Source: Polytrichum commune
Taxonomy: Eukaryota > Streptophyta > Polytrichopsida > Polytrichales > Polytrichaceae
DNA: 64,000 nt
Direction: 5' to 3'
NCBI GenBank assembly: GCA_950295325.1
Contig: OX485803.1
Coordinates: 68,525,554 to 68,589,553, forward strand
Shown: in pieces, positions 19,327-64,000 of the stretch
How positions within the stretch are numbered: the stretch's first letter is position 1
How the letters are laid out: every line of letters begins with the position of its first letter
Made by a program: the position numbers and the translations under genes
Notes under the pieces: generated by a model
Seen by the model: only the letters and a program-made list of their open reading frames with translations
What the model was told of the DNA's origin: nothing
The model's database searches: none

Positions 19327-19526
19327 NNNNNNNNNNNNNNNNNNNNNNNNNNNNNNNNNNNNNNNNNNNNNNNNNNNNNNNNNNNNNNNNNNNNNNNNNN
19401 NNNNNNNNNNNNNNNNNNNNNNNNNNNNNNNNNNNNNNNNNNNNNNNNNNNNNNNNNNNNNNNNNNNNNNNNNNNNNNNNNNNNNNNNNNNNNNNNNNNN
19501 NNNNNNNNNNNNNNNNNNNNNNNNNN
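19327..19526. other. assembly gap (200 N)
   Basis: Exactly 200 unknown bases, a conventional gap placeholder. Sequence just after it (about 19545-19605: 'tctaccttagatgtgcaatcaag' and 'gcaaccgaattaggcac') looks like the end of a MITE family A copy, so a repeat may have caused the break. Confidence 0.98.
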
Positions 19527-20125: not shown

Positions 20126-21626
20126 CTTTCCACCTAGAGGTTGGGCCAATTCGTTGTGTAAGAGGTTTGAAATCCTCACTTGTGATTGGTCAAAAGGTTG
20201 AAATCGGCCCTAACCCCTTTACACCTAGAGGCGGGGCCGATTTGGTGATATGATTTATTTAATCAAAAAATGCATGTTTTGACACGGCCCGAGCTCATTG
20301 AATTGGGTGCACGCAAAATGAAGGGCCAATGTCACATTTCAATAAAAAAATCATTTTCTTAATAAAATATGATTTTTTCAACGAACTATATCCATTGGAT
20401 TATGTGAAAATATGAAGGGCTCTATGCTATATTATGCTAGATCTGTTGGATTATGCTAGATTTATTGAATCGGCCTAGCTTCTTGGCCCTAAGGCTTTTA
20501 CATATGGGAAAATTGGCCCCCATTATCATCTTATATATAACGTGTAGTTGAGGCCAGCCTCCAACCCAAAAGGGGTGGAAATTTCATGCAATCGGCCTCA
20601 AGGGGAATTGGCCTGGCCTCTAGGTGTAAAGTGGCCCTTAATATAGCACGTGGATGGCCTAAGCGCCACGTGAAGTCCGAGGGCCCTACAAAGGCCGTCC
20701 TTCCACTTGGCAAAATAACAATCTCCCCACCGGGACTTCTCACTTTCCATGCATGGCACCAATTCCAAGGAGGAGCTTCTGGGTTTTTTAAAACCCGGAA
20801 TGTCCGAACACCCACCGTTCCTTAGACTCATAATATTTGAGGCAGTGATCGGGGAGGTTTTTGGGCATAATCGGTTGAGATCCTAGTGTTTGCAAGTCCA
20901 ACCGGTTACATGTTGATATCCTCCGGTTTTCCTTTATTAAAAGTGGGGCATATTGTATAGATTCTTCTAAAATGATCAGTAATTTTTCTTGCAGACTTGA
21001 ACTTCAACCGGTTATTTCTCAAGTTCAACCGGTTCATTTGTGACTAACTGCCGGTTCTCCTTGATCATAGATTTGTGGGGCAACTGTAAAGATGAGTTTG
21101 ACCACTAAGGAGAGATACTATAAACCGTGAAAATAAGGTGATTCACATTGAAGATATGGTCTTAAAACCATGAGATGATTTTCCAAGATGGAAGAGAAGG
21201 ATTCACGAAGAATGCAAGTTGTTACATATTTATATTCCATGTCATAGAAAAATAGAAAAATAGAAAAATAGAAAATCCTACAATGTTTCAAAGTGGAAAG
21301 TTTGTCAAACCCCCTACTCGTTCACTAGATTCTCCTTAAACCGAACACGGTAATGCTCATTTCCACACAGAACATCACCTAGACCGGTTAACCCATGAGT
21401 ACATTAAAATTGTGATTGATGGTAGTCAAACACGACTAAATTTGGCTAAATTGACTATACACGCATTTCAAGATGCCGGCCTGGTAATTATCGGTTTCAG
21501 AAATGGCACTTCACTGTTATGACGGAAATCTACTGCACATGTAGAGGGCAGTTCACGGTTTATGGTATTTCTACCTTAGATCAGATGAACCCTCAAAGGA
21601 CGTAGAGTAGGGGCTCAATGTACGAA

Positions 21627-25965: not shown

Positions 25966-26164
25966 CCTGAAGGCATCGTTGCAGCGGCGGCCACCATAGC
26001 CACGCCCGCCTTCAATTTTGACAAGCCTCTCCACACTCCTCCTCCCTCTCTCATCCATCTCTCGCTGTCACTGTAATTCCGTCTCGAAGTTTGTGCTTCA
26101 AAGAGCCTACTTTCGCATTTTCCTGCATCCTATCCACTACAATCCGCTTTTAGAGGTTCTCTCT

Positions 26165-26770
26165 ACTCACAGCTCTCTCTATCTCTCTCCCTGCATCAGG
26201 GAATTGCATCTTACTTCTCTTCGTTGAAGAGTATCATCTATTGATTACGCTCCGTCTGTTTATGTGGAGGTCTCGGTCATATAATCACAGTTTCTACTTG
26301 ATTTAATAGGTAGTTTTTAGTCAGAGCTCTCGTTTTCCCTCTTCCTGCATCAGGAGATTTCAGCCTACTCCTCCTTCCTTCAAGAAAATTAGCTGATTCT
26401 CTTTGTTCATCTTTTTGGATGGAGGTCTCGGTCATGTGATTGCAGTTTGGCTTTGGTTGGATAGGGAGTTTCTTCTCAGAGCCCGCTTTTACCCTCTCCC
26501 TGCATCTGGAAATTCCAACTTACTCCTCCTTCCTTGAAGAATTTGATAAGACCTTCTGTTCATCGGTTTGAGTGGAGATCCCGGTCATGTAATTAAAGTG
26601 TTTCTTTGATTTGATAGGTAGTTTCACTCAGAGCTCTCTTTTGTCCTCTTCCTGCATCGAGAAACTTCAGCTTACTCCTCCTTCCTTGAAGAAAATAAGC
26701 TAAGACTGCTGCTTCATCTATTTTAACAGAGGTCTCTCGGTCATGTGTTTCAGATTGGCTTCGATTTAAG
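26165..26770 (+). repeat. four tandem copies of a unit of about 154 bp
   Basis: The landmark ctgcatc recurs at 26191, 26345, 26500 and 26652, giving spacings of 154, 155 and 152 bp. Each unit carries, in order, 'tccctgcatc', 'ttactcctccttccttgaag' (diverged in unit 1), 'ttcatc...ggaggtctcggtcatgtgat', 'tttgatttgataggtagtttt' and 'cagagctct'. Units differ by substitutions, so the array is not new. No protein frame runs through it. Confidence 0.88.
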
Positions 26771-45332: not shown

Positions 45333-46149
45333 CACGGGTAGATCACTCCCACGGGTAGATCACTCCATTGTCAAGTTGAACACCATGTGCGACCAAAAAA
45401 AATCTTCTTTTGGTAATTTGCACCACCAAAATGGGTCAAAATTTTATCAAAATTTTATCATGAGTAGATATACACAATACCTATGACATAGTTAAAAGTG
45501 GTAACTAAATTTGATGATTTGTTTTTTTCATAAAACATACCATTTCTAACTAGAATGACACAAAATTGAACTAAAACAATTACTAAAAAAAATAAAGATG
45601 ACTAAAAATTTCAAAAAATTATACAAAAGATACTATCAATGGTTATGTATATGTAGAAAAAATATCATAAATTTTAAAATTATATATGGCATGTAATATA
45701 GGGGTAGCAAACTTTGTCCGCACGTGGTGTCAACTTGACAATGAAGTGACCTCCCCGTGATCACTCCATTGTCAAGTTGACACCACGTGCGGACAAAGTT
45801 TGCTACCCCTATATTACATGCCATATATAATTTTAAAATTTATGATATTTTTTCTACATATACATAATCATTGATAGTATCTTTTGTATATTTTTTTGAA
45901 ATTTTTAGTCATCTTTAATTTTTTTAATAAATGTTTTAGTTCAATTCTGTGTCATTCTAGTTAGAAATGGTATGTTTTATGAAAAAAAACAAATCATCAA
46001 ATTTAGTTATCACTTTTACCTATGTCATAGGTACTATGTATATCTACTCATGATAAAATTTTGACCCATTTTGGTGGTGCAACTTACCAAAAGAAGATTT
46101 TTTTTGTTGCATGTGGTGTTCAACTTGACAATGGAGTGATCTACCCGTG
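45333..46149. mobile_element. 817-bp fold-back element with 8-bp target duplication
   Basis: TGCAAGGG at 45325-45332 is repeated at 46150-46157. The element begins CACGGGTAGATCAC and ends with its exact inverse. Almost the whole length is one inverted repeat: about 400 bp on each side of a centre near 45753, including matching poly-A/T runs. The central ends (tcacttcattgtcaagttga / tcactccattgtcaagttga) resemble the outer ends, so each arm looks like a complete smaller element with its own inverted termini. The 8-bp duplication and CA...TG ends suggest a hAT-type relative. No coding frame. Confidence 0.9.
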
Positions 46150-48951: not shown

Positions 48952-49596
48952 TCAACTCAGCCACAAGTGTCGACTTACATACCTTGTGAAGTTGTGACCT
49001 ATATACTTCACGAATGGCACATTCTTGGTTGGGACAATGATTGCTTGGGGATGTGGCTCCTCTGCATCTAGCAATTTAGAGATCACCTGACGTGTCTCAT
49101 CCTCCAACTCGGGAAGAGCCTGTGACCTAACTCGTTCCTCATCAACAACTTCGTCTTTCAACTTTTTTGCACTCATGAGTGTAACTCGTGCCTCCTCGGC
49201 AATCTGTGCAACATTGGCCTAGTAATGCAGATCATGTTGCAACACTTCCATATCTATATCTTCTTCTCTAACATGTCGTTGTGTTGGTGTATAAACAAAA
49301 TGCTTAGGATCTTCTTTTTCAAAGAGCCATGGTTTATTGAACCGCGCTAAATTCTTAGGGTTGGCACCAAGTGATGGAGCCATGTTCAACCCATGAAAAT
49401 CCTTATGAGCTTCCCTAAACCCCTCCTTCAGGGCGCCAACGTACTCATCGGTGGAAACTAGATTGTGTCGAGGTCACCTTCAACCCTCAGCCTTAGACGA
49501 TGTAACCCGCTGCTGAACCGGTCTACATGGAAGTTACTCCCACCAAAATTAGACCATTCTAGGTTTTCATTTCTATGAAGGTGGTTGTATGCACAC
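48952..49596 (-). pseudogene. decayed coding stretch cut by the CACTA terminus
   Basis: Read on the minus strand from the CACTA junction, the first codons after the transposon end are open. They include HLHRNENLEWSNFGGSN and FSSGLHRLRLRVEGDLD, then a stop. A shifted frame continues with STDEYVGALKEGFREAHKDF, GLNMAPSLGANPKNLARF and WLFEKEDPKHFVYTPTQRH. An in-frame TAG (49219-49221) follows, then AEEARVTLMSAKKLKDEV and RSQALPELEDETRQVISK, stopping at 48952. The sustained acidic/basic, protein-like composition over some 600 bp with one shift and one stop indicates a former coding sequence. I do not recognise the family; a transposon protein is likely. Confidence 0.5.
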
Positions 49597-49619
49597 TATG
49601 CCAAATACAGGCTTTTTTG

Positions 49620-50335
49620 ACTGGGGTTTTCGACTAAAAATGGTATAAAACCAGGTACTTGACTAGGACTACTGTAGTAGCAAAGTGAGTCAAATGCTTG
49701 TCAGGTCGGACCAGTCGCTTGCAACAAGTTGACTATGGTTTATTCTGTGGGCATTTCGTTCCCTATGCACGTTCCCAATGACCTTTTGGGACCTCGATTG
49801 GCACCGCCCTTGGGACCTCCCGTGTCTCGACTACATATAGTCAAGTATTGTTGACTACCAGTAGTAAACACGTAGTGCCCACTCTAATAAAGATAGTTAT
49901 AATATCTTGACTATACCTAGTAAAAACTTAGTCATGTCAATAATTATGTCGCTTCACTAAGTCTAGTCATAATGATTTGTGTATAATCCAAATAAAACAT
50001 AGTCATCTTTGCTACAACGTTCCACTATATTTAGTCACATTGGTGTGACTGAGATTAGTCAAGGGATTGTTCATGGTGGACAATCTTGGGTTTACCTTGA
50101 CTAAAACTAGTCACACAATTGGCATTCAGCTGGCCTTAAAGATTGTCTTCTTCCCTACTTGCAATCGTTTTAGTCATTGTTGTCAATTGGAAACTACTAC
50201 GCATAGTCAACTCTCCTCATTCACTTTAGTCTTGCATTCCAGATTCATGACTGACTCTAGTCAACCCATGTGAATTGTTCTGGTCTTCATTTTTAGCATT
50301 GCTTTCACAGTAGTCAAATTAATACGACTAGTGAT
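49620..50335. repeat. CACTA subterminal motif array (TAGTCA / TGACTA words)
   Basis: About 25-30 irregularly spaced occurrences of the words in both orientations, many as close inverted pairs (for example gactaaaactagtc at about 50098-50111 and cgactacatatagtcaag). In En/Spm such motifs bind the element's own TNPA-like protein. Binding here is inferred. Confidence 0.8.
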
Positions 50336-50536
50336 AGAAATAGATGCATATCCATGTATGTGCAATCTGTACTACTTGTTGTAACAAGCTCAGCTGCGAC
50401 ATGCGCAAACATTCCATAGAAACAATCACTTGTGGCAATCCATACACTGGTTCAAAAAACACTTTATATTCAAAATAATCGTTCCTGGGTGTAGTCCTCC
50501 CATAAGCACATGCGGGTTCCTGGAACTAGTTCAAAA

Positions 50537-53500
50537 CTAAACTGGTGGAGGCCGGCGCAAACATTCTGTGGGCCACAAAATAAACTGACCCACGGCATCA
50601 CCGATTTTCGAGACCGGCGGATCATCTAGCATTAGGGGTTTATATAGCACATATCCGTCATCGTGGCTCTGGAGCACTGCCAAGGACACAGTTCCTTCAG
50701 CGATTACTACTCCGTGCAAAGTCCCCCCCGGAAGAGTCGTGACCCTCCCTTCCCCTACTAGAAGAGATTCCTCGTCGACTCCTATTCCCATGATCTGTAC
50801 TACGTCTCCTGCTACAAAGGGTTGCATTGCTTCAACCTCCTTCAATGTTTCTTTCTCCTACAAAGAAATTGACATGCTGAGGAGTTAGTATGAGCTACAA
50901 CCATGGATACATAACTTGTCATTTGATTACTAATAGGGGTGACATTCAAAAAGTCAATCATTGTCAACTGCCAGTAGTAAACATGTAGTGCCCACCCTGC
51001 TAAATATATTTACGACATGTTGACTAGACCTAGTCAAGCATTAGTCTAGACCTAGTCACTGGTTAGTCAACCACTAGTCACTGGTTAGTCAACCATGAGT
51101 CACTGGTTAGTCAACCATTAGTCACTGGTTAGTCAACCATGAGTCACTGGTTAGTCCAACATTAGTCACTGGTTAGTCCAACATTAGTCACTAGTTAGTC
51201 AAGCATTAGTCAATTGCTAGTCAAGCATTAGTCAAACATAGACTAGAGATGCCCATTATATTGGTTAGACAAGCATTAGACAAGCATTAAGACAAGCATT
51301 AGACAAGCATGTATCAAACATAAGCCAAGCATAAGTCATTGTCCTACCTTTGAGATTTTTGATGCGCTTTTCTTGGGGAGCCGCTTCTTGCCAATCTTCT
51401 CCGATTCCTTTTCCACTACATGCTTGGCTCGTAATTTGCGGGGCATTTGCGGTGACTGCATTCCAACCTGTAGCTTTTGCAACTCCGTGGCCCGCGCCCT
51501 CTTCTTCGGAGTGAATGCAACATCGCTGGCCACCTTCTCCCTGGAGCCGGAGCTTACCTCCTGATCGTTCTGAGTCTCCAACTCTGCAACCTCCTGCGCA
51601 GTGGGACCTTCGTCTTCTGCCTTCCGTTTCTTTCCCTGTTCAAAGTATCCACCCCAGTAGCATTTAGTCTAGCAAATTTATATCACTCCAAAGCTAGCCA
51701 ACTTTGCGCTAAGAATGAACTTCACATTTCATACTCGAGTGCTCAACAACATAAGCTACTATTACTCAGGACATGATCTCTACTTTACTATGTTGTCGTC
51801 ACAAACTCTATGTTCAGAATGTCTTTGTAGTCACCTCTTGCTCATGTGTAGTGTGTGCGTGTACCACATGAGCTTCGTTAATTTGAGGAGTATCTTCTCT
51901 TGAATGTCCCTTGGATTTTGGTGAGGCCAAATTCTGGTTTGGGAACTACACAACATGGGCAACAATACAACCTTAATGTTTAGGATTTGGCAGTCATAGC
52001 ACGTGAACTCTACCAATGCATTTAAACCAAGTTGAGGTTTGGAATTAAAAACGTACCGAGTTGGGCAAGCACTCGGTGCTACACGTGTTCGGAGTTGACT
52101 GCAGTTGCTCGAAAGACGAAGGCTGCTGAACATTGGATGTAGTAGGGTTTGGAACAGCTGGTATGTTTAGTGCTGTCATAATTGCCTTCATACTTGCCTC
52201 CATCCCAGCCATTCGGGTATAGAAGTCGCGTTTCATCGACTTAAATTCCATTGCCAGGGACGTCGACGGCTCCTGCACTCCGCTTCCGCTACCAGAAATG
52301 TGGGACACATTTGGCGTGCCTGCCGGCTGCTTCTTGCGAGATTTTTGGCGTAGCATCTCCAACTCTATCTCCTCGCAGCTTGGATCCCGTTGCAACTCTG
52401 CTGCCTGCACCAAGACCCTCTTGCATTGCATTCCATTAATCAGACATGAACATAGTTACAGAGTTCCATATATTTGCATAAACAAGTCCTGAAGTGCTGA
52501 GGAACTTTAGAACTAGTTGACTACCACTACAGAAATGGTTGACTAGAACATTACTACCAGGTCTGTGAATGATGACTATAGTATTACTAGGACTTCACTG
52601 GATGTCTACTCGACTTCGGCTGGAGCCAGTGGAATCGAGAACGAGGGTGCGCATCAAGTGCAAAAGTCAGAGGTGTTAGAAGACTCGCAAAATAACACTC
52701 ATAAAGCGAAGCAGTCAGTGGGCTACTATACGAAGATCTAACATCACCTGCACATAAAACTCAAGAATGTGCATACATATACCCTAAACACAACTCAAAT
52801 GACTACCCATCTAGAGACACTCTCGGAACAGAACTTTGTGGTCCTAGACTAGACTAACCAGAATCGGGCCTCCTTGAATCGGGTGTGGAAATCACATTTT
52901 TGGCATTAGTGAAGATGAAATATAACAATATCAACAATGAGTAATCTTCTCTAGTATGCTGCATATGTTATAGTTACACTGGCAGAATTCATTGAACTTA
53001 GTTTGAATTACATAAGAAAACCCAAAAGTTGTCCACATCTAACTGGCTGGACTTGGAAACTCTAGAATTTTAGGAATAAAGCAACCCACAACTCCGGGAA
53101 TGAAAAGGGTTGAAAGAAATGCGCAGTAATCTAGGTCTATAAAGAACGTTGATTCTTGCCTGACCTTGAAATGTCAAACTACAAACTCAGCAAAAACCTT
53201 ATACCCAGAATCTCGGGAGAAATATAATCTCACTAGATATTTATTCCTCTAAACTTAACATTGATCGAACCTGGAGAACAACAGGAAGCAATATAGACAC
53301 ACAACAGAAAGTTAATGGTTAAATCCAGGGACTGGTGACCATGAAATTGTATGAGCCCAAAAGGAGAGGACGTGTAAATGGACTTATATTGGCCATAACC
53401 CTACAAGTTCAAGACTGCAGAAAAATTATCCGAACATTATCTGAGGAATTTAGAGAACTTACCTCAAATTCCAAAAGAAATCGAGAAAGATGAACACGTA

Positions 53501-56500
53501 ACTCAAATGAACACACAACTCAAATGACTGCCCAACTAGAGCAAGTCGTAGTCGTATGTTCCTTTCACAGTATGCAGCGTATGCTGAAATCTAAAAGCAA
53601 TCAGTTCTTAAAACTTACGAGGCTTAAACTAATTTCTTGCACCTTCTAGTTTGGTTCTAAATGCAGCATTCTAGATATGAATATTAAGTGGGCTTTGAGG
53701 AAGTAGACCATGGTTGCCCGAGCAGAAATCCAAACCGAAGGAAGGTGGATTCTTGGCTACAATCTTAGTTATTGGCAAATGCTATCAGGTATAATCTGAG
53801 ATTCTGGGACACAACATTTAATTGCATGTGAAAATGCGGGGTCCAGGTGACAGTGGTTTACCTGGACTAGGGAGGTACCTCTGTACTGCTCATCAGATTG
53901 TCATCGTTTCTTAGGCTTCGTCATCAAAAGCGACGTCACGTAGGTTCACATGTAAACTTACAAGGAGTCAAAGATGAGTAGCTAAGTGAACATGTTGATT
54001 AAAGTCCTTTTAAGCTGGATTGAACTCTTCCAGGCGAGAGCAAGGCTAGCAGAAGAGGAACTTCAGCGGGGGAGAACAAAACTAATGTAAGCAACTGTAC
54101 CATTAAAAATGTCTATGTGCTCACTTCAGTTGCATCACAAGAGAAGTTCTCTTAAATCCCATATTGACTGCATTTCACCTTCAACGTCCTAAATCCATTA
54201 TATCCGTGCACTTCCACTTAGCAAATAAACAATTGATTAGGATTTCATTCCCGAATTGGAACTGTGAATAAAGCATGTAATTACCTTGGAAGCCAAAAAC
54301 ATTACGGAGGCTACCGCACTCCACCACTCTAAAGATTGAGTTGGTTTGAAGCCATCATGATATAGTTTTAGCCTTATTAGCCTTATGGGTTCCAAGATTT
54401 TAACGTCAATTTCATAACATTGCATGACAAAGTACTCGTTAGCATGGAGGTTATAATTTTTGTGAGTTCCCATTACAATTGTACAATTTAATATACTTTG
54501 GGTGATGTCTTTTAATTTTGAAAATTTTCAGACACAACCAAACTCATAAAGGTTGATTCTATGTAATCAAGCATATTTAGCCTAATTGCGCTTGATGAAC
54601 CTAATCAAGCCTAATCAAAACTGATACTATGCCTACCTAACAAATTATGCCTAATTAATTTCTTAATGTGCTTAGTTGAGTTGAGTATGATCTAACTCAG
54701 AGAAGAAAATTGTTGTGCTTAATTTCACTTGTTTAGGCTTCATGATGCTGAATTAGGTGTAAAATGCTGGTTGGCAACTAATCAGCCTTAAATAGTTCAA
54801 ATGTGTCTGAATACTTTTAGAAACCTAGAACTTGCTCTCAATAGCTTTCAAATACGGTTATGTACACTCGATTACATCTATTCATGCTTAAATAGTTCAA
54901 ATGCATATGAACACTTGTGAAAGTAGAAGGCATCACCTAAACTATTACCAAAATATATGTACTAAAGTCAGCACACTAATTTAAGTTCCACTTTACAATG
55001 ACAAAGATCCTTTGCCAACCGTAAGTCACAAAAATGAAAAATTCCTCAAATGCTAATGAGGAATTTGTCATGTAATGAAATGAAATTGATTTTGTCAAAT
55101 TGATTTTGTGAAAGAGGCCTCTGTATAGAGCTATTTAAATGCTTCATGCATGCGTCCTCAAACAATGAAATTGTGAGGAGTTGTAGGCTATGTGGGATTT
55201 CAGATTCAAATATGACTAAAATATGACTAAAATATGACTAAACTATGACTAAAAAGCTACTGCAGCATGACAAGAGTAGAAACTTGGGAGGGATACTTAC
55301 CAGATTTGCCGTTACCTCCCCCTCGGACCTGCCAGCATGGGAAAGTCGCTTCAGTTGAGCGCGATTTAGAGTGAGTGTCTCCGCTTGCTTTACCTTCTTC
55401 TCGTCTGCGATTAGTGCTGAGAGGTTGACCCAATGGTCTTGCCTGATGTGCTTTGGTTTCTCTCTGCCAGCGACCATTAACTTTTTCATGGCATACCTCT
55501 TCATCTTCAACTGTGATTTCAGATTTGCATGGAAGGACCACTCTGTGACGTGCCCAATGCCACCTTCATACTCAAAGGTATTATCCACCCTCTTCTTGAT
55601 ATTCAACAACGTCATTGCATTGTGGTCGTTGTAGTTGTCCACACTGAAGTCCAAGTCAACTACATGGCCTCGTAGGCATTTCAGCCATAAGTGACGGTTT
55701 CCCGCGCATGGATTTCCCTTCATATCCACTTCCACTGTGTAGCGTTTTTTTTCATGTTGCTCTCGCACCGGTGCTTCCTGTTGCAGTCGTCGTGTATGTA
55801 GTCGCCTCCGGTGACGTTTGTCAGCTTCCGAGCTGTGTGGAGGATCATCGAACTCTCCCCCCGCAACTGCCTCTGGACTAAGCTTAGCCGCAAGACGTTG
55901 CTTTTGAGCCCTCTGTACCTTCAGCATCTCCAACTCCTTGCTGATAATCTTTAGGTCCATGCTTGCATAGTCGTCCAGCCCAAGCTCAGACGTCCTACCA
56001 GAAGAACGTGAACCATCGAACCTCCTTGCTGGCGGTGGTGCATAATCCTCCAGTAGGCTTTCCTCCTCCAGAAAGTCATGCTCGTCCCCATCGTTAGATG
56101 ACCACGTCACACTAGTCGACATGTTGCGTGCTTCCTTTTGTATTGCGGAGTCTTGTTGACTAATTGTGCGTGGCACCGCAAATTTTGCACCTGAAGGGAT
56201 GGAAGGCTGTGAACGCGCTGAAGTGGGTGTGCTGTTCACACTATAGGGCCTTCTGGTGTCCCACTTCGCCGGCTCGGACAGTTCAGGTTTTCCCTGCACA
56301 TGTGCATTCACTGACTTATTCCAGGTTCTATGCACATAACTCCTAGTTCTCAAGATGCTAAGCGTACTAACAGTTGAGATAATGCATAAGGTGAACCAAC
56401 ACCTGGCATTGTTTGCAGCATTAGAACTGAAGTACATACACGCACCTTTGCAGGAGCTTTAGGAGCTGGAGAAGTTGGCAACACTGCTTCCGAGTTCCTT

Positions 56501-56529
56501 CTGGACCTCCTCCCCTCTTCGTCTAATGC
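50537..56529 (-). CDS. CACTA transposon protein, TNP1 / Transposase_24 type
   Basis: Five exons, all phase 0 with good GT-AG borders: 56446-56529, 55301-56293, 52057-52404, 51348-51635 and 50537-50857, giving 677 aa before any upstream exon. The N-terminal part is basic and Ser-rich with an acidic DGDEHDFLEEESLLEDY. A coiled MDLKIISKELEMLKVQRAQK follows. The central region VDMKGNPCAGNRHLWLKCLR to HIRQDHWVNLSALIADEKKV, then NRAQLKRLSHAGRSEGEV, matches the Transposase_24 (Ptta/En/Spm) pattern. It continues across the splice into AAELQRDPSCEEIELEMLRQ. The fourth exon is Lys-rich, with probable nuclear localisation. The last exon has VAGDVVQIMGIG ... VSKIGDAVGQFILWP, the C-terminal TNP1 (En/Spm-like) domain. 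Such proteins bind subterminal repeats. The catalytic Transposase_21 partner is not seen in the window. The start is not in these exons; 59426-59836 is one candidate first exon. No stop breaks these five exons. Confidence 0.8.
51040..51240 (+). repeat. tandem array of a 21-22 bp unit with TAGTCA words
   Basis: Unit close to agtcactggttagtcaacca-t, repeated about eight times with small changes (aaccat/caacat, ggtta/agtta). It is followed to about 51335 by a looser run of 'acaagcattag' units. It lies in the last intron (50858-51347) of the TNP1-type gene and is built from the same word as the subterminal array. Confidence 0.9.
53005..53500 (-). repeat. fragments of the AACCGGTTA-type repeat in a CACTA intron
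   Basis: 'ccacatctaactggctggac', then 'ttggaaactctagaatttta' at about 53032-53070; 'tctgaggaatttagagaac', then 'ttacctcaaat' at about 53441-53472. Both match parts of the minus-strand copy at 40512-40725. They lie in the intron between 52405 and 55300. Confidence 0.5.
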
Positions 56530-57520
56530 CTGTAGTTCCTATGCAGTAGTTAGTACTTCCATACTTTACTAGTACCAATTTAAAATGTTCAACGATCATA
56601 CTAGTGTTTGTCACCTTCTGCACACAATGTGACAAGAAATAGTCAAATTATGCATGCGAATGACTAACATCAGAAGTCTAAGAAATCTAGAGAGGTATGT
56701 TGTTGCTCTTCAAACTCCCAACCCAATTATTATATCACAAAACAGACACGAAATTGGTACATCCAGTTACAAACACGAGGCCATGTTGCTGACCCAAAGG
56801 CTGGTTTATGTCACAGGCAGCTTCATGACAATAGTTTCAGTGGCAATATACCAAAATCAATGCAGCTTCTCACATCACTGCAATTGCTTCTCATGGGTCA
56901 TGGGTTCTCAAGGGTCATGGGTACAATTCTGTGCATTGAAGTATTTCCCAACCCACACTAAATATCAGATGTCAACATTGTGGTTAATAAATATCTATTG
57001 GATTGAAAATAATGTCCATTTAAAACACTTTTAACCCATATGGAAAGGAGGTGGGCATATCAGTTGCAAGCATGATAAGTCCAATATTTAAGGGACACTC
57101 TACAATTGACGGATTTGGAAATTCAGCCTACCAAAACCTGAGTCTGGCCCAAGATTAAATTCTCAAAAGTAATCTCAGTCCAGGCTGAATTTTGCCTTGG
57201 AGGCTATCCTGAACTAATCTTCAACACAGGAAATTGGATAAATTTCAATCCAGATCTTGTTGAGGGGTCAGTTTACTCTAAAAGTAAGCATTAACCTGCA
57301 CTTGAACTGCACAAGTGAGGGAGCTACGTGAAATGAGCACCTGAGACATCAATGATATGATTCCAGAATGGTGATCCATGGTCAACACAATCTCTATAAA
57401 ACAAGTTTTTTCAATCACGTGAAGGAGTCACTAAGTCCAGCTGAAACTTCTAATATAGACAAATGCCTTGTAGCCCCTCTAAGAGGTAAACTTTCCAGAA
57501 GCTATAACAAGGAAACCCTT

Positions 57521-58662
57521 TTACATCCACATAAACCACAGACACTCACAAACATACCGAAAAGAACAAGTCATCCTGAACTGGAGAACACATCTCCAAA
57601 TTCTTTCTAGACACAGAGACCTCTCCCACATACCTCGAAAACAGGAAGGCCTTGCACCAGCCACTACAGAAGGGGAGCAGTTACAGCTGAAGGGCGAAGC
57701 ACATTGTACTGCACTTTGCCCTGAACATAGTACTGGACGATGTGAGCAACTGAAAGGGCCCTGAGACAGCAGCTGCTCCTGTCCTTTGGACATATTTCCT
57801 TTACTGTTTGTTTCATCATTTGGCCTTGCAGAAAATCGTCTAGGAGCCACCTTCATTTCTTTATCTGTTATTTGACCAGACTTAGAGTTCTGAGCAACTG
57901 TGGGGTTCTCAGTTTTGTTGCTTTTCTTGGATTTCTTTCGCTGTCTCCTAGGTGAGCTTCCACGCAGGGGTGCAGCCATTGGGACTCCAAGCCGAGCAGC
58001 TACAAGCTCACGAAAAGCTGCTATTGCTGCGCCAGTGACAAATTCTCACATGCAGCTAATTGTAGCTGCAAGCTGAGAGTCCCATTGCATGTGGCACCCT
58101 TACCAGAACATTTGCAATCTCTTCTTGCATGGCCACCATTCCCTTGTGGATTGCCTTCGGTAACACTGGGCTGTAAATAACTACATTCATCTCTAAGGGC
58201 AGCCATGACTGCCTCAGCAGCTAGGCATGCCCTAATGGCACGAGTTGTGAGGTCGTCGTCCTTTTCAGGTTTTGTAATTTCTACTGCAGTTGGGGCACAG
58301 CCCACCAGATCACTGGACCTGCCCTTTGGTTTAAAATTGTTCTCGTGTTGGACTGCAGTGTAGCTTCTATCAATTTGATCCTGAGAACTTAGCTCAATAC
58401 TGTGGCCTTCAGCCATGAACTTAGAAGGAATAATAGGCTTGTCAGGTGGAGCTGCTCGGCCTAAAATTAGTTTACCAGCACCTTTCTTCTTTTCTGGAGG
58501 TGATACTGTGTCATCTTCCGATTCGGGGAAAATAGATTGACCGAGAGCAACGAGGCTATCAACTCTATCGACATCTTCCACTGTTATACCTTGCTTGTTT
58601 CCAGAATCATCATCATCTGTGTCAGACTGTTCTTCCTCAAACATATTGTCTATTCTCTACTC
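57521..58662 (-). CDS. unrecognised acidic/basic protein, possibly captured gene fragment
   Basis: An AG acceptor at about 58663 is followed by a short leader and ATG at 58644. The first block is strongly acidic (MFEEEQSDTDDDDSG, then VEDVDRVDSLVALGQSIFPE). Next come EKKKGAGKLILGRAAPPDKP and ITKPEKDDDLTTRAIRACLA. Unspliced, it stops at 58021 (207 aa). If GTAAGG at 58103 is used with AG at 58045-58046 (59-bp intron), the frame continues EFVTGAAIAAFRELVAARLG and a basic SPRRQRKKSKKSNKTE, to a stop at 57521. The last 50 residues look non-coding. The family is not recognised; the composition suggests a nuclear protein. It lies on the same strand as the transposon gene and inside a possible large intron of it. 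Confidence 0.4.
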
Positions 58663-58886
58663 TGCAAAAAGAGTGGGAGCTTAGGACGTTAAGACTAACA
58701 AGCCAAATTATGTCCCAGTATGACAAAGTCACTTAAAGTAAATGACCTCTTTCGTAACAAAATTTGGGCAACTATCATTTGATTCCTCTTTCAAATTGAT
58801 GAAGTACAAGTATATATGAACACCAAAGCAGCTGAAAAGGCTACAACATTAGTGACTAAAATTTAGTACCTGCTAAATTGGACAAT

Positions 58887-59163
58887 ACAGGTGACAGAAC
58901 CAGAAAACCATAAAAGGGTCTCATTCACAGGCCTGGACCAAAGATTGCTTAGTGACCAAAATAGGAACAATGTATATTCATACACTTACATCTTGATTGC
59001 CATACTTGCACAAGCACAGAGGTTACAACCATTCCAAACAAAGCTTATGTCTTTTGACCACTACCGTCTGCAAGTGTGATAGGCAGCTATTGTGGTTTTC
59101 TCATCACCGCAGCTACACTAAATTGAAAGGAGTATTTCAGGTGACAGAACCAGAAAACCATCT
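58887..59163. repeat. 24-bp direct repeat about 251 bp apart
   Basis: The word beginning caggtgacagaaccagaaaa and ending ccat occurs at about 58889 and again at about 59140. The sequence between holds short unremarkable frames. It could mark an insertion, a slippage duplication or a former target-site duplication. Confidence 0.6.
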
Positions 59164-59365
59164 TTGACAAAATAACTCGTAACGAGTTCAATAGGGTAAA
59201 CAAAAAGAGAGACGAAAACTTTGGAAAGTCGATGTACTCAACGTAGACCAATCGACGCACAACCAAATCATTGAAATATTTCTCTATAACCCACTAACGG
59301 GCTCAGGGAATTAAAAATCCTAGGATAAGAATTAAACACGCCTTTAAACCCTAAATCTCTCAACC

Positions 59366-59836
59366 CTAGACTTTAGGGTTGCAAGAGAGAACAGGGATTG
59401 AGTAAAGCCCTAGATGAAAACTTACCTGGAGACGAGCTTGATCCGACAGAGAAGTCGGAGATGGTGCTCTCCATGACCGAGTGATCCTCGAAACCTCCCC
59501 CACCTGCAGTGATACCTGCACACGACCAGCTCCAAGTTTTTCGGGATGCCTGCCTTTCTCCGCCTTCGGCACTCCGACTTCAGTTGCAAGCGCTTGTAAC
59601 CCTAACTCCTCAAGCTTCTTGTTGTTACTCTCTATCCTCTTCAAGCGAGCAGCCTCGTATGCCGTTAGGGGAACCTATGTTTCTTGCAAGGCTTTGCTTG
59701 GTGATTCGCCGCCCTCACTGTCGCTCAAGCTTTCGGTGCCCTCGCTCTTGCTCCATGGTCCGCTCTCACTACCGCTTATTGTGTCGCCCTCACTAGTCTC
59801 ATAGCTAGCATTCTCAAACCCCTCTTCCGTGTCCAT
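59366..59836 (-). CDS. possible first exon of the transposon gene, interrupted by an in-frame TAG
   Basis: ATG at 59834-59836 opens an acidic, Ser-rich frame (MDTEEGFENASYETSEGDTI then repeated S-E-G-G words). It meets TAG at 59675-59677 after 53 residues. The same frame then continues VPLTAYEAARLKRIESNNKK, LEELGLQALATEVGVP and ITRSWRAP, and reaches an excellent donor (CAG/GTAAGT) at 59425-59426, in phase 0. That donor is compatible with the exon at 56529. The YE-x-x-R-x-x-RIE-x-N-x-x-x-LEELGL pattern is a coiled module seen at the N-terminus of several plant nuclear proteins (WDR76-like, some B3 proteins). Whether the TAG is a real mutation, a recoded stop or the end of an upstream ORF is not settled. 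Confidence 0.45.
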
Positions 59837-61200
59837 GACTCAACAACCCGAAGCTCTGAAGGAAGGGATGGGTGGTGTCAGCTGGTATGTAATGCATCCA
59901 CGCCATTGTTGCAGGCTGTGTTTTTCTACTCCAAGCAATTAGCAGGTTGTTGAGCGCTGCCCCTACACTGGATGCCGAACACACCAGTAGTTCACTTAGG
60001 TGGCCGTTTGGGTCCTCGTTTGTTAATGTTGAGGCAGTAAGTGCGGTGGATGGCGGGGAAGGAAGGGTTGCAGTTGGGGTGCGGTGAATGGCGGGGAGGG
60101 AGGGAGGGAGGCTAGGGTGCTCTCCATGGCGGGTTCGGGTTAAGGGGAGATTAGGGTCATTGACCGTTAGTCAACACTTTAAGTTAAATTTGAAAGTAGT
60201 CCAGGTTGCCCAAAACCCAAACCTCTGCAGCTAACACTTTCCCATTGTGATATGAATGCTCTCAAAAGGCTTAAGTCTTGCGCTGAACCACTTTCAATTT
60301 TCACGTAATGGTTTTTTACAAATTATTACATTTAATTGCACTTAATTAGGTTTAATATGTATGAATACTTGTGAAAGTAGTTCTCATTAACTAAAATATT
60401 TTCGAAATTGACATATTCAAAATAACACAGTAATTTAAAGTTTAAATTTTGGATGATAAAGACCTTTCAAATGGAAGTCAGCAAATTATAATCCTCCATC
60501 CTCTTGTATTAAATTCCTCCTCAACAACAGTGTCGATCAGTGTTGTGAGGAAACATCCAATAACAACTGTGGTGCCATTGGCACTGGATTGGTGGTGAAT
60601 TGGTGCAGTACTTGTGGATTGCAAATTGCAGATTCGCCCTTCCATTCATTCATTCACCTACAAGGAGAGCAATCTGGTTGTTGCAGAAGAAAGGGTTGCA
60701 GTAATCAATCGGAGCAAGCTTGTATTTTTTTTCTGTGCTTCTTCTTCTTCTTCTTCTTCTTCGTTGTTACTCAGTCTTGTGAGGAGACATCAACATTTGT
60801 AGTTATAGGAGTGCCTTGTCCATACTTGATCTGCACCAGGAGCAGTTACCTAGGTAGTTTTCTTGGAGGTGAAGATTGGTGGTAGGTCGGTGGCTTGGTC
60901 CTGCTGTGTCTGCAAGCTGGGGAGTCACCTACAAGAAGGAGGGAAAAAAATTGTGTTTTGCATTAGAGGCCAAGTAATCAGAACTAGTTTCATGTCCTTG
61001 GCTCCCTCTTGTGAGGAGTCATTTGAATAGACAGTTGTAGGATCAAGGAGAAAAAACCAAAATTGGTTGTTGCAGATTAAGGCTAGTGGTCTGAGCTAAG
61101 TCTGTTGAGCTAAATTGGAAGACATGGAGACAATGAGAGTGGTGTTACAAGTGCTGGAGACAATTGCATGTGTATGTGTGTGCATTGTAATGATCCAGCT
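59837..61200. other. non-coding part of the CACTA region
   Basis: 59837-60170 is GC-rich upstream sequence, perhaps a promoter for the minus-strand transcript. 60748-60764 is a (CTT)n run. Plus-strand frames at 60589-60885 cross this run and lack domain features. Confidence 0.4.
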
Positions 61201-61210
61201 ATGGATGAGC

Positions 61211-61630
61211 TCAAATAGACCCCGTGAATCCTAGATATGAAAATATTCTAGTGGTGTCCACCAAATTAAGAGGTTTCACTTTTACCTTCGATTTCAGCAG
61301 GGTTTCTCCCGCTGGACGCACGCGCTTTTTTCCTGTCGTTGGCACTCCCATTTCCACTAGCTCGCACTCCGATATGCCACGACGATTATTCATACAACCA
61401 CCAAATGTGCTTCCTCCTGCTGCCCCTAAATTTGGAGATTTTCCGTCGTTGCTGGCCTCCTCCTTCTGTGCCGCTTCGGTGACATATCAACAAGGACGCA
61501 ACATGCTTCTCAAATAGACGTGTGCTTTGCCTTCGCGGTGTCGCTGGTGTGTCCTTGTGCATCGTCACTTTCGAATCATCGTCATCCTCGTCCTCGTCCT
61601 TCTGTTTGGGTTGCTCTGAATCACATACAT
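61211..61630 (-). pseudogene. eroded coding pieces, Lys/Arg-rich
   Basis: Two minus-strand pieces. The upstream piece reads acidic then basic (EQPKQKDEDEDDDDSKV, then TPATPRRQSTRLFEKHVA). The downstream piece reads ISECELVEMGVPTTGKKRVR then ETLLKSKVKVKPLNL. They resemble in style the exon at 59426-59836 (ELGL...VGVP then RITRSWR), but in the opposite order. They may be remnants of a related transposon or captured gene. No full frame can be built. Confidence 0.3.
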
Positions 61631-61687
61631 GAAATCATTTGGAAACATACCAACCTGTGTCCAAGTTTTTCCCTTCTTAGAAACCAT

Positions 61688-61912
61688 GTCCAGGGATATT
61701 TCTGGGCACAATCGGTCAAGACCCTTGTGTTTCCAAGTCCAACCGGATACATGTTCAGAGACCATCTTTCAAAATTTCTTTGTTTAATTGGAGTACATTA
61801 TTCTATACATTCATGTAAAGTGACGGGTAATCTTCCTGAGGCCTTGAACCTCAACCAGTTGTTTCTCAAACTCAACGGGTTTATCCGTAACTAGCAGCCG
61901 CCGCTTCTCCCT
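61688..61912 (+). repeat. AACCGGTTA-type dispersed repeat, copy 4
   Basis: 'ccagggatatttctgggcac', 'gtttccaagtccaaccggat', 'cctcaaccagttgtttctca'. Same order as the copy at 20846. Its presence inside the CACTA span means it inserted later or was carried along. Confidence 0.65.
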
Positions 61913-61961
61913 GTTCATTACTTAGTAAGGTATGTAAGTAGGCCTTATGTGGACACTCTTC

Positions 61962-62366
61962 TTAACGCACACCTATAAATGAGGACAAGGGAGGAACTTC
62001 AGGGTTACTAAGTTGCAACTCAGCTGTGCATTTGTTAAAAAGCCAAACACTCTTTCGAACAGCAGGCTGCATCGTCATGTCTGAAGAATCTGATGCGAGT
62101 TTCACAGCATTCGCATGAGCAGTGCTCGGTTTTTTCAGTTTGTTGGAATGATAATTATTATTATTACTATTACGTGATGATCTCATTTCCTTTGCAGTGG
62201 GGTTATCCTTGAGGATGTTGTAAAGTGCGTCCACCGAAAAGATGAATTTGCCAGCGTGACTTGTCAATCTTTTGCCGCGTGTGCGGACAGCTGATCTCAA
62301 TGAATGTTGTGAAACTCGAGCATCCACTCTCGGAGGTACCATCCTTAAATTATGTTCCTGCTTCAT
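61962..62366 (-). CDS. unrecognised basic Ser/Asn-rich open frame
   Basis: 134 codons from ATG at 62366 to a stop at 61962. Basic N-terminal part with RTRGKRLTSHAGKFIFSVDA, then LYNILKDNPTAKEMRSSRN, an Asn run from an (ATT)n-like stretch, and a short KLKKP. No known domain recognised. The composition is more protein-like than the average frame here, but there is no independent support. It may be part of the transposon's cargo. Confidence 0.25.
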   Translation of the reverse strand: MKQEHNLRMVPPRVDARVSQHSLRSAVRTRGKRLTSHAGKFIFSVDALYNILKDNPTAKEMRSSRNSNNNNYHSNKLKKPSTAHANAVKLASDSSDMTMQPAVRKSVWLFNKCTAELQLSNPEVPPLSSFIGVR

Positions 62367-63384
62367 GAATTCAAAGCAAAACTTTCAGAATCTTCAAAAA
62401 CTTGTGATAGGGGTTTTTTGTATTAAGATAGTAACAAAAAGAGGCCATGTGCTAAACCAATGAGACTGTGACACATTTCATATTTCTTAATATTTGGTCT
62501 CTTGTCATACAGGATCGCACTGTCTCCATGAGGCATCAATTGCCTCATAATTTTACAGATGGAAGGAGTTGAAATAATGAGGCTACATTTGTGAATACTA
62601 AAGTCAATTCAGCCCTTGCTGACACTATTCCACTTAAAAGAAAGTGCGGGTGAAATTATGTCTAGGTTGAATATACAGAGCCCCGGCCCTCCTTGAATTC
62701 TACCTTGAAGAGCATCATGCAACGAAGTTAGACCAGTCAATGATGGGAGTATAGGGCAAATTGGAATCAAAGGTGCACAGGTTTACAATGAAACATAGAT
62801 TCCAATCTCCTCATTTTTTCGTGTCGGTGTTGATAGATGGGATGTGGTGGTTGTGTATCTTTCAGACAGTGAGGCGGATGAAGTCATCACCGCTATTTGC
62901 ATGAAGAGGAGGCTTGTATTCGAGAGGATGTACTTCTTCATGTGTGCTGATGCCATGGAGGAGATTAGATGAACTAGACTCCTTCTTTGACCACCTAATT
63001 GGTTTGCTTACATGAACAAGTTCTGAATTTTTGCTTTACTTTATAGTAATTTAGATTTTTTCCTCCTGGGGGATTAAATGAAGTGTGGATGTTGCTAGGA
63101 CTTAAACGTGCAGGCTCTCAAGGTTTCTAAGTACGACTGGACCAAAGTGCGGCACAAAAATCGTATAAGTCTAGTGAGAGCAACAAAGAAAAGCGCCGGG
63201 TTTATGAGGCTGCAAGACGCCAGGATACTTAGCTGCGCAGAAGGACAACCCTCTTGATGTCAAGGTGAGTAGTATTTCTAAACATTTGTCTGCAATTGAC
63301 ATAGGGGCAACATTTCAAGGGAATCATGGCTTTAGCCAAAGTTCTTGACAAACTGTGGGTATTTCTAAAACTTGACTGAAATAA

Positions 63385-63480
63385 TGTGCGCTGTTGACTA
63401 CCCACATCTGCGTTGTTGACTAGCCATAGTCACGTATGTTAATGTTGTGACTACGTGTAGTCGTACATGTAGAGTTGTGG
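63385..63480. repeat. second cluster of CACTA-type TAGTCA words
   Basis: tgttgactaccca, gttgactagccatagtcacg, gtgactacgtgtagtcgtac. Closely spaced gacta/tagtc words as in 49620-50335. It may be the start of the right subterminal region, or an internal cluster like 51040-51240. Confidence 0.6.
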
Positions 63481-63690
63481 ATGTACAAGCAGCGAAAGCC
63501 ATTGTTAATAGGTCGCGTAAATGGTAGAAATATATAATGGCAGTTGGAAATATATAATGGCAAATAGTGCCACAGTTGGATGCTTTCCTTTTCCCCAAAG
63601 TTGACTGGAAATGTTGCTATTGCCATTTTTGGCTCACAGTCGGGTTGCAATGTTGCAAACATGGATAATTGTGTCCTTTGTGATTTGCAG

Positions 63691-63921
63691 ATAAAGCATG
63701 TGTGTTCCAAGTCCAACAAGCCCTGTGACTACTTATGTAAAGATTGTGGCCGTGATAGGTGGGGCTGCAATAAACCACCTTGCATATGTCCGTTGAAGTT
63801 GAAGTGCACGTTCGGGCTGGATTTCGCCGTGCGCAAACAACGTTTAAAGTGCAAGTGCCGCTGGAAGAACGGTCGGGTGCTTCCAAGGTGGATGTGCAAG
63901 TGCAAAGTGAGGGCGACTTGA
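63691..63921 (+). CDS. possible Cys-rich exon, partial
   Basis: After a possible acceptor (tttgcag at 63684-63690) a plus-strand frame reads with regularly spaced cysteines: HVCSKSNKPCDYLCKDCGRD, then WGCNKPPCICPLKLKC and LKCKCRWKNGR, ending MCKCKVRAT. This could be a zinc-binding segment. A second plus frame overlapping it (from 63786) reads VEVEVHVRAGF then FKVQVPLEERSG and ends at a possible donor, so only one can be real. Neither is recognised. Plus-strand coding here would oppose the TNP1-type gene. Confidence 0.25.
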   Translation: MKHVCSKSNKPCDYLCKDCGRDRWGCNKPPCICPLKLKCTFGLDFAVRKQRLKCKCRWKNGRVLPRWMCKCKVRAT

Positions 63922-64000
63922 TTTTTGGTAAATGCCTATCAGACCTATGCGTAACGCAGCGTCGTCTCCGTGGATGTCACCGAACGTGTTGTCATTGAGG

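Follow-up and report, generated by a model that had tools for sequence, protein, structure and literature searches.

A 64,000-nucleotide stretch of the Polytrichum commune genome (assembly GCA_950295325.1, contig OX485803.1, positions 68,525,554 to 68,589,553; hereafter the window) holds one apparent end of a CACTA-type transposon and, beside it, a predicted minus-strand gene whose last intron carries a tandem array of the short word that is concentrated at the transposon end. We tentatively read this array as a minisatellite of candidate half-sites that was born from the transposon end and that may serve as a binding platform of the VANC kind in a CACTA-type element, an interpretation to which we give slightly less than an even chance. 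VANC21 comes from the Arabidopsis Mutator-like element (MULE) VANDAL21; it recognises a 9-base motif that lies in the introns of that element and in its intergenic and terminal non-coding DNA, and its binding leads to methylation loss (PMC5735166, PMC10398659). These two papers and PMC2613891, PMC8195511 and PMC8978399 are used here in excerpt.

The apparent element end and an array probably derived from it

The terminus appears to be of the CACTA type. At positions 49594–49607 the plus strand reads CACTATGCCAAATA, with CACTATGCCAAATACAGG beginning at 49594, and relative to the minus-strand gene this is the 3' end of the element. No inverted partner was found within the 64-kb window. Matches to the terminus with up to three mismatches numbered six, against 8.7 expected; all lay on the same strand, and only the match at 49594 was exact. 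The element may extend beyond position 64000.

The 752 bp that start at the terminus (49594–50345) contained 21 copies of TAGTC or GACTA, where 1.84 were expected, and seven of ACTA-N4-TAGT, where 0.03 were expected; none of 1000 shuffled sequences reached either count. TAGTCA occurred there 11 times on the plus strand and five times on the minus strand. Subterminal short repeats in direct and inverted orientation, a feature of the CACTA superfamily, are therefore present. An earlier note on this DNA had named TAGTCA as the mark of the element end, and the concentration is real, but in the subterminal region the word mostly stands as part of a dyad, GACTA-N4-TAGTC, and not alone as TAGTCA. In an alignment of 27 TAGTC-anchored sites from 49594–50345 and 63300–63800, positions −8 to −5 read ACTA with about 0.5–1.1 bits each, and the four spacer bases between the arms held 0.01–0.13 bits; since full dyads were counted twice, once per arm, these figures are somewhat inflated. 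Conserved arms with near-random spacers are expected under selection on a binding site and not from simple duplication. Lying at irregular distances, the sites plausibly resemble a protein-binding dyad rather than products of slippage.

When up to two mismatches to TGACTA-N4-TAGTCA were allowed, nine dyads were found in 49594–50345, six in 1–49593 and five in the remainder of the window, at 51021, 51043, 56630, 63417 and 63448. The dyad at 56630–56645 (TGACAAGAAATAGTCA, one mismatch) is isolated and lies just upstream of the predicted exon 56446–56529. The last two belong to a cluster in a region (63300–63800) with two copies of ACTA-N4-TAGT against 0.01 expected (0 of 1000 shuffles as high). 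They adjoin a 22-bp duplication that carries the word (63383–63428), which was detected in a looser period scan only and missed by the stricter one. This cluster, distant from the terminus at 49.6 kb, may represent the opposite subterminal region, or else one more internal site.

Within the last intron, Tandem Repeats Finder (TRF) reported a 22-bp unit in 8.3 copies at 51053–51234, with 91% matches and a score of 273. The tandem array of 21–22 bp described in the earlier note is thus real, but it advances in steps of 11 bp, with 19 consecutive units in register at 51031–51239, and these form 22-bp dimers over about 51053–51195. The spacers fall into several kinds; the 22-bp period reflects the alternation of two of these along much of the array. 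AGTC was retained in all 19 units, TAGTC in 17 of 19 and TAGTCA in 14 of 19; both ends of the run were chosen by the presence of the word, so that only the inner units count as evidence of AGTC constancy. Between adjacent units identity was 91% in the core versus 21% in the spacer positions. The range first given for the array, 51040–51335, covers its word-bearing part, but the stretch from 51265 to 51335 is a decayed tail without the word. By TRF and register reading, this tail consists of 11–12-bp repeats (TTAGACAAGCA), mostly with TAGACA or AAGACA. The array is built of direct half-sites 11 bp apart. A perfect dyad, TGACTAGACCTAGTCA, occurs only at its edge (51021–51036), where its right arm doubles as the array's first unit; the two-mismatch dyad at 51043 lies within the array.

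The link between the array and the terminus is firmer than had been suggested. When the terminus was compared with the window by blastn, a single other match was obtained, which pairs 49834–49933 with 50947–51046 (100 bp, 78% identity, same strand, E 6e-18), and the array begins at the right-hand end of the copied block. Because the array grows out of this 100-bp subterminal duplicate, it appears to have been seeded by the transposon end. Copying from the terminus into the intron is favoured by the sequence, and the reverse direction is less likely. Since the 22-bp array units are 91% alike and the two block copies 78%, the duplication probably came before the expansion.

A second array was found in another intron of the same gene. 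At 55208–55254, TRF reported 4.3 copies of AAATATGACTA (11 bp, plus strand), in which TAGTCA lies on the minus strand, in the opposite orientation to the first array and among unrelated spacers. A uniform scan of the 64 kb for periods of 8–60 bp returned three non-microsatellite arrays, namely an 8-bp array at 21243 and the two word arrays; both arrays with a period above 8 bp thus carry the word in register, under a strict criterion that was fixed after both word arrays were known. TRF also lists repeats that are low in copy number or less regular, for example a 38-bp unit at 60041–60120, whose consensus as printed lacks the word. A 155-bp tandem repeat at 26162–26746 (3.8 copies, 72% matches) likewise has no copy of the word in its printed consensus.

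Across the whole window TAGTCA occurred 77 times, against 35.5 expected, and none of 100 shuffles was as high. Within 49594–56600, the six predicted exons (about 2.1 kb) contained one copy and the non-coding sequence (about 4.9 kb) contained 40, of which 35 fall in the subterminal region and the two arrays; the exon boundaries used for these counts differ by at most 9 bases from those listed below. A feature of VANC-type targets is therefore present, in that the motif is concentrated in non-coding parts with intron arrays, although the concentration is local (terminus and arrays) and does not extend across the introns. General enrichment of the word across introns was rejected, with 8 copies against 5.3 expected in the big intron (52421–55200). 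Near the 3' end of that intron, three TGACTA (plus strand) lie within about 60 bp (52518–52578) and form no dyad.

The predicted host gene

The gene model was derived from open frames and splice signals and is a prediction. As the earlier note had proposed, the array lies in an interval that fits a last intron, here one of GT-AG type and phase 0. The exon upstream of it is open and ends in KKSASKISK; the exon downstream runs for 106 codons to a TAG stop, and a branch-like TACTAAC stands close to the acceptor. Additional exons with ordinary splice sites are predicted at about 51835–51933, 52057–52419, 55301–56293 and 56446–56529. Coordinates of the main features are collected in the table.

Table. 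Features of the transposon end, the arrays and the predicted gene (window coordinates)
Feature	Position	Strand	Basis
CACTA-type terminus CACTATGCCAAATA	49594..49607	.	sequence directly
Subterminal region, dispersed dyads GACTA-N4-TAGTC	49594..50345	.	word counts against shuffles
Subterminal block, presumed source of intron copy	49834..49933	+	blastn
Last coding exon, 106 aa, TAG stop	50540..50857	-	open frame, AG acceptor upstream; no Pfam match
Last intron, GT-AG, phase 0, 490 bp (predicted)	50858..51347	-	splice sites and flanking frames
Intron copy of subterminal block	50947..51046	+	78% over 100 bp; alignment
Perfect dyad TGACTAGACCTAGTCA	51021..51036	.	0 mismatches to TGACTA-N4-TAGTCA
Array, 19 direct 11-bp units	51031..51239	+	TRF, register alignment
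Decayed tail of 11–12-bp repeats TTAGACAAGCA, word lost	51265..51335	+	TRF, register
Penultimate coding exon, 96 aa	51348..51635	-	open frame, CAG acceptor, GT donor
Second array, 4.3 x AAATATGACTA	55208..55254	-	TRF, word positions, uniform period scan
Large coding exon, about 331 aa	55301..56293	-	open frame, CAG acceptor, GT donor
Dyad cluster and 22-bp duplication	63383..63463	.	word counts, dyads, looser period scan

The gene had been labelled TNP1-type. In the frames scanned against Pfam nothing reached a curated cut-off, and the matches that appeared were at chance level (E 0.04–0.4); the label is unsupported and is dropped for now. The whole frame of exon 55301–56293 gave no match at E up to 1, and part of this exon gave one chance-level match far below the cut-off. 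Transposase_21 (TNPD) was not matched by any of the 13 window frames and four segments scanned, which comprise part of the frames up to position 64000. AlphaFold models from single sequences were of low confidence and unusable, with a mean predicted local distance difference test score (pLDDT) of 43.5 for the last exon and 37.0 for 55301–55750. Judged by eye, the protein presumably bears some likeness to En/Spm accessory proteins.

A minus-strand frame at 59366–59836 starts with MDTEEGFENASYETSEG and, read by eye, has an in-frame TAG before VPLTAYEAARLKRIESNNKKLEELGL. The part after this stop gave no Pfam match. This frame may represent a first exon of the accessory gene, or one that has decayed. 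In viral contigs, two exact 17-base matches were found and judged to be chance, with no dense TAGTCA run in either locus; for the last exon, seven pattern matches yielded no relatives by tblastn.

Elsewhere in the window, a near-perfect foldback of about 800 bp occupies 45350–46149. Its arms at 45522–45749 and 45761–45988 are 97% complementary and 11 nt apart, and more arm pairs extend out to 45350 and 46149. It is probably a foldback element or one resembling a miniature inverted-repeat transposable element (MITE), or a source of hairpin RNA. A run of about 200 N at 19327–19526 marks an assembly gap.

Binding platform or neutral minisatellite

The proposed mechanism comprises four steps, the first two of which are supported by the sequence. 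In the first, a dyad-bearing subterminal piece of about 100 bp would have been copied into the last intron of the accessory gene. In the second, the half-site TAGTC would have multiplied beside the copied dyad in 11-bp steps, close to one DNA turn, and partly as 22-bp dimers. In the third, we infer that the protein of the gene, in the role of TNPA or TNP1, binds both the end dyads and the intronic half-sites, which are phased with the DNA helix; a role of the word as a site for protein binding is plausible. In the fourth, the array would offer a non-coding platform for binding, through which the gene stays hypomethylated and active, as with VANC21. The autoregulation or decoy role put forward in the earlier note is one option only, and binding against silencing has a direct published precedent in VANC21 (PMC5735166). 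The same binding could alternatively be used for negative feedback, with the polymerase blocked inside the gene. Between the two we favour anti-silencing: with arrays at several non-coding places, it is a better match than a block in the last intron. The fuller proposal is that a CACTA-type transposon, independently of VANDAL, evolved a platform for anti-silencing or self-control by copying an end-binding site into the introns of its accessory gene and multiplying the half-site at helical-turn steps, so that a dyad became phased direct repeats. Taken as a whole we consider this unlikely.

Several observations weigh against a binding platform. Outside the terminus and the arrays the word is not generally enriched: the 8 copies in 52421–55200 were equalled or exceeded in 159 of 1000 shuffles, 50858–51020 has none against 0.28 expected, and 56532–63300 has 7 against 10.3 expected. 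Apart from its edge the array does not have the geometry of the dyad, and a protein that requires the dyad may therefore not bind it. The array also contains no CpG, so demethylation at CG sites could act on its flanks only. The constancy of AGTC in 19 of 19 units is a descriptive count. Finally, no match to Transposase_24 or Transposase_23 was obtained by Pfam in the four larger of the six predicted exons or in the last two joined. As tnpA is highly diverged between species (PMC8195511), a Pfam negative for TNPA or TNP1 is not a strong one.

The main rival, which remains strong and which we regard as possible, though doubtful, is a neutral minisatellite. A subterminal piece would have been copied into the intron, and replication slippage or unequal exchange would have amplified a unit in which the word was present by chance, with no function. 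The array is one homogeneous run with 91% matches. Further evidence against a platform points in the same direction: when units are compared in phase (next but one), core and spacer differ little in conservation (93% versus 79%), and the tail at 51265–51335 has lost the word and retained the spacer, as neutral repeats would. What speaks against neutrality is that AGTC is intact in every unit and that the word forms a second array, between different spacers, in another intron.

If the word is bound, the consequence might be self-suppression. TNPA bound to the subterminal domains of defective Spm elements blocks the polymerase, and TNPA can regulate its own activity both ways (PMC2613891). By analogy with this Suppressor action on genes that carry a defective Spm, the protein might block RNA polymerase in its own transcription unit. 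The array does lie inside the predicted gene, but from the last intron it would act only once most of the gene had been transcribed, and we consider this explanation improbable.

Two further readings are weaker. The W-box, TTGAC[CT], is contained in TTGACTA, so host WRKY factors might bind the word and host stress signalling would then act on the element. TTGACTA occurs 10 times in the 752-bp subterminal region and 10 times in the 221 bp of 51020–51240, versus 9 times in 1–49593. However, a W-box leaves the N4-spaced dyad and the TA after TTGAC unexplained, and 8 of the 18 TAGTC words on both strands of 51020–51240 are not followed by AA; the chance that host factors are the explanation is small.

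A function at the RNA level is very improbable; it would work through a hairpin in the intron or through splicing altered by clustered CTAAY sites that resemble branch points. The spacers CTGGT and ACCAT/C, which alternate in 51020–51240 (minus strand), are close to complementary, which allows the sense RNA of the intron to fold into a long, imperfect hairpin (−63.1 kcal/mol with z −2.96, a stability reached by 1 of 200 shuffles), and CT[AG]A[CT] occurs 13 times on the sense strand and never on the other. Yet relative to the gene the second array runs the other way, and the subterminal sites are found past the stop codon and on both strands (TAGTCA 11 plus, 5 minus). The first array also stands over 160 nt away from an acceptor that has its own TACTAAC, and tandem units that are partly palindromic fold well even in the absence of selection.

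Comparison with known transposons

Among CACTA elements, maize En/Spm shares with the present element the CACTA end, a short subterminal word in both orientations and a multi-exon accessory gene. It differs in its word, a 12-bp motif in En-1, and the excerpts describe no expanded array in a tnpA intron (PMC2613891, PMC8195511). No Pfam domain ties the present gene to TNPA. The soybean Tgmt* element is likewise a long CACTA element with asymmetric subterminal repeats, direct and inverted, and with an accessory transcript that has little similarity to known TNPA. Its motif, by contrast, is TTGGCAG plus AATCTTACAG, and intronic arrays are not mentioned in the excerpts (PMC2613891). The CACTA-like Jozin of Chenopodium quinoa resembles the present case in carrying tandem repeats inside the element, near its 3' end. 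These repeats are satellite DNA, described as captured, whose monomer is much longer (171 bp for a comparable one in C. sosnowskyi), and the excerpts describe no link between them and a subterminal word (PMC8978399).

A limited search of open-licence literature, including excerpts of PMC2613891, PMC8195511 and PMC8978399, found no intronic word arrays in CACTA elements among the matches listed. A search of the same literature for the terminus phrase gave no related work among the matches listed, judged by title. The claim in the earlier note that the arrangement is undescribed stands for CACTA elements within this limited search. It fails for transposons generally, because tandem repeats of the VANC21 motif lie in the introns of VANC21 and VANB21, and also upstream of VANA21 (excerpts of PMC5735166). 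As a kind, the arrangement is already known from VANDAL elements.

VANDAL21 is the closest parallel, with a short motif in the non-coding parts of the element and tandem repeats of it in introns of its own genes and in other non-coding DNA. It belongs to the MULE superfamily, whereas the present terminus is CACTA-type. VANC proteins of VANDAL MULEs carry DUF1985/DUF287 (PMC5735166), and no match to either was obtained by Pfam in the scanned frames. The motifs also differ, being YAGTATTAY for VANC21 and AGTTGTCC/AGTTGTAC for VANC6, against the GACTA-N4-TAGTC dyad here; PMC12312487 mentions a possible VANC6 target only. Binding and demethylation have been demonstrated for VANC21, while here they are candidate properties. 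Within the CACTA superfamily, activation of Spm by TnpA correlates with demethylation, as stated in PMC10398659. The present element offers a concrete origin for such an array, with a duplicated piece of the transposon end as its seed. If the array is bound, amplification, in an element's own introns, of the word that its own protein binds would have arisen in a second transposon superfamily, and motif amplification would be a general route to counter silencing rather than a peculiarity of VANDAL.
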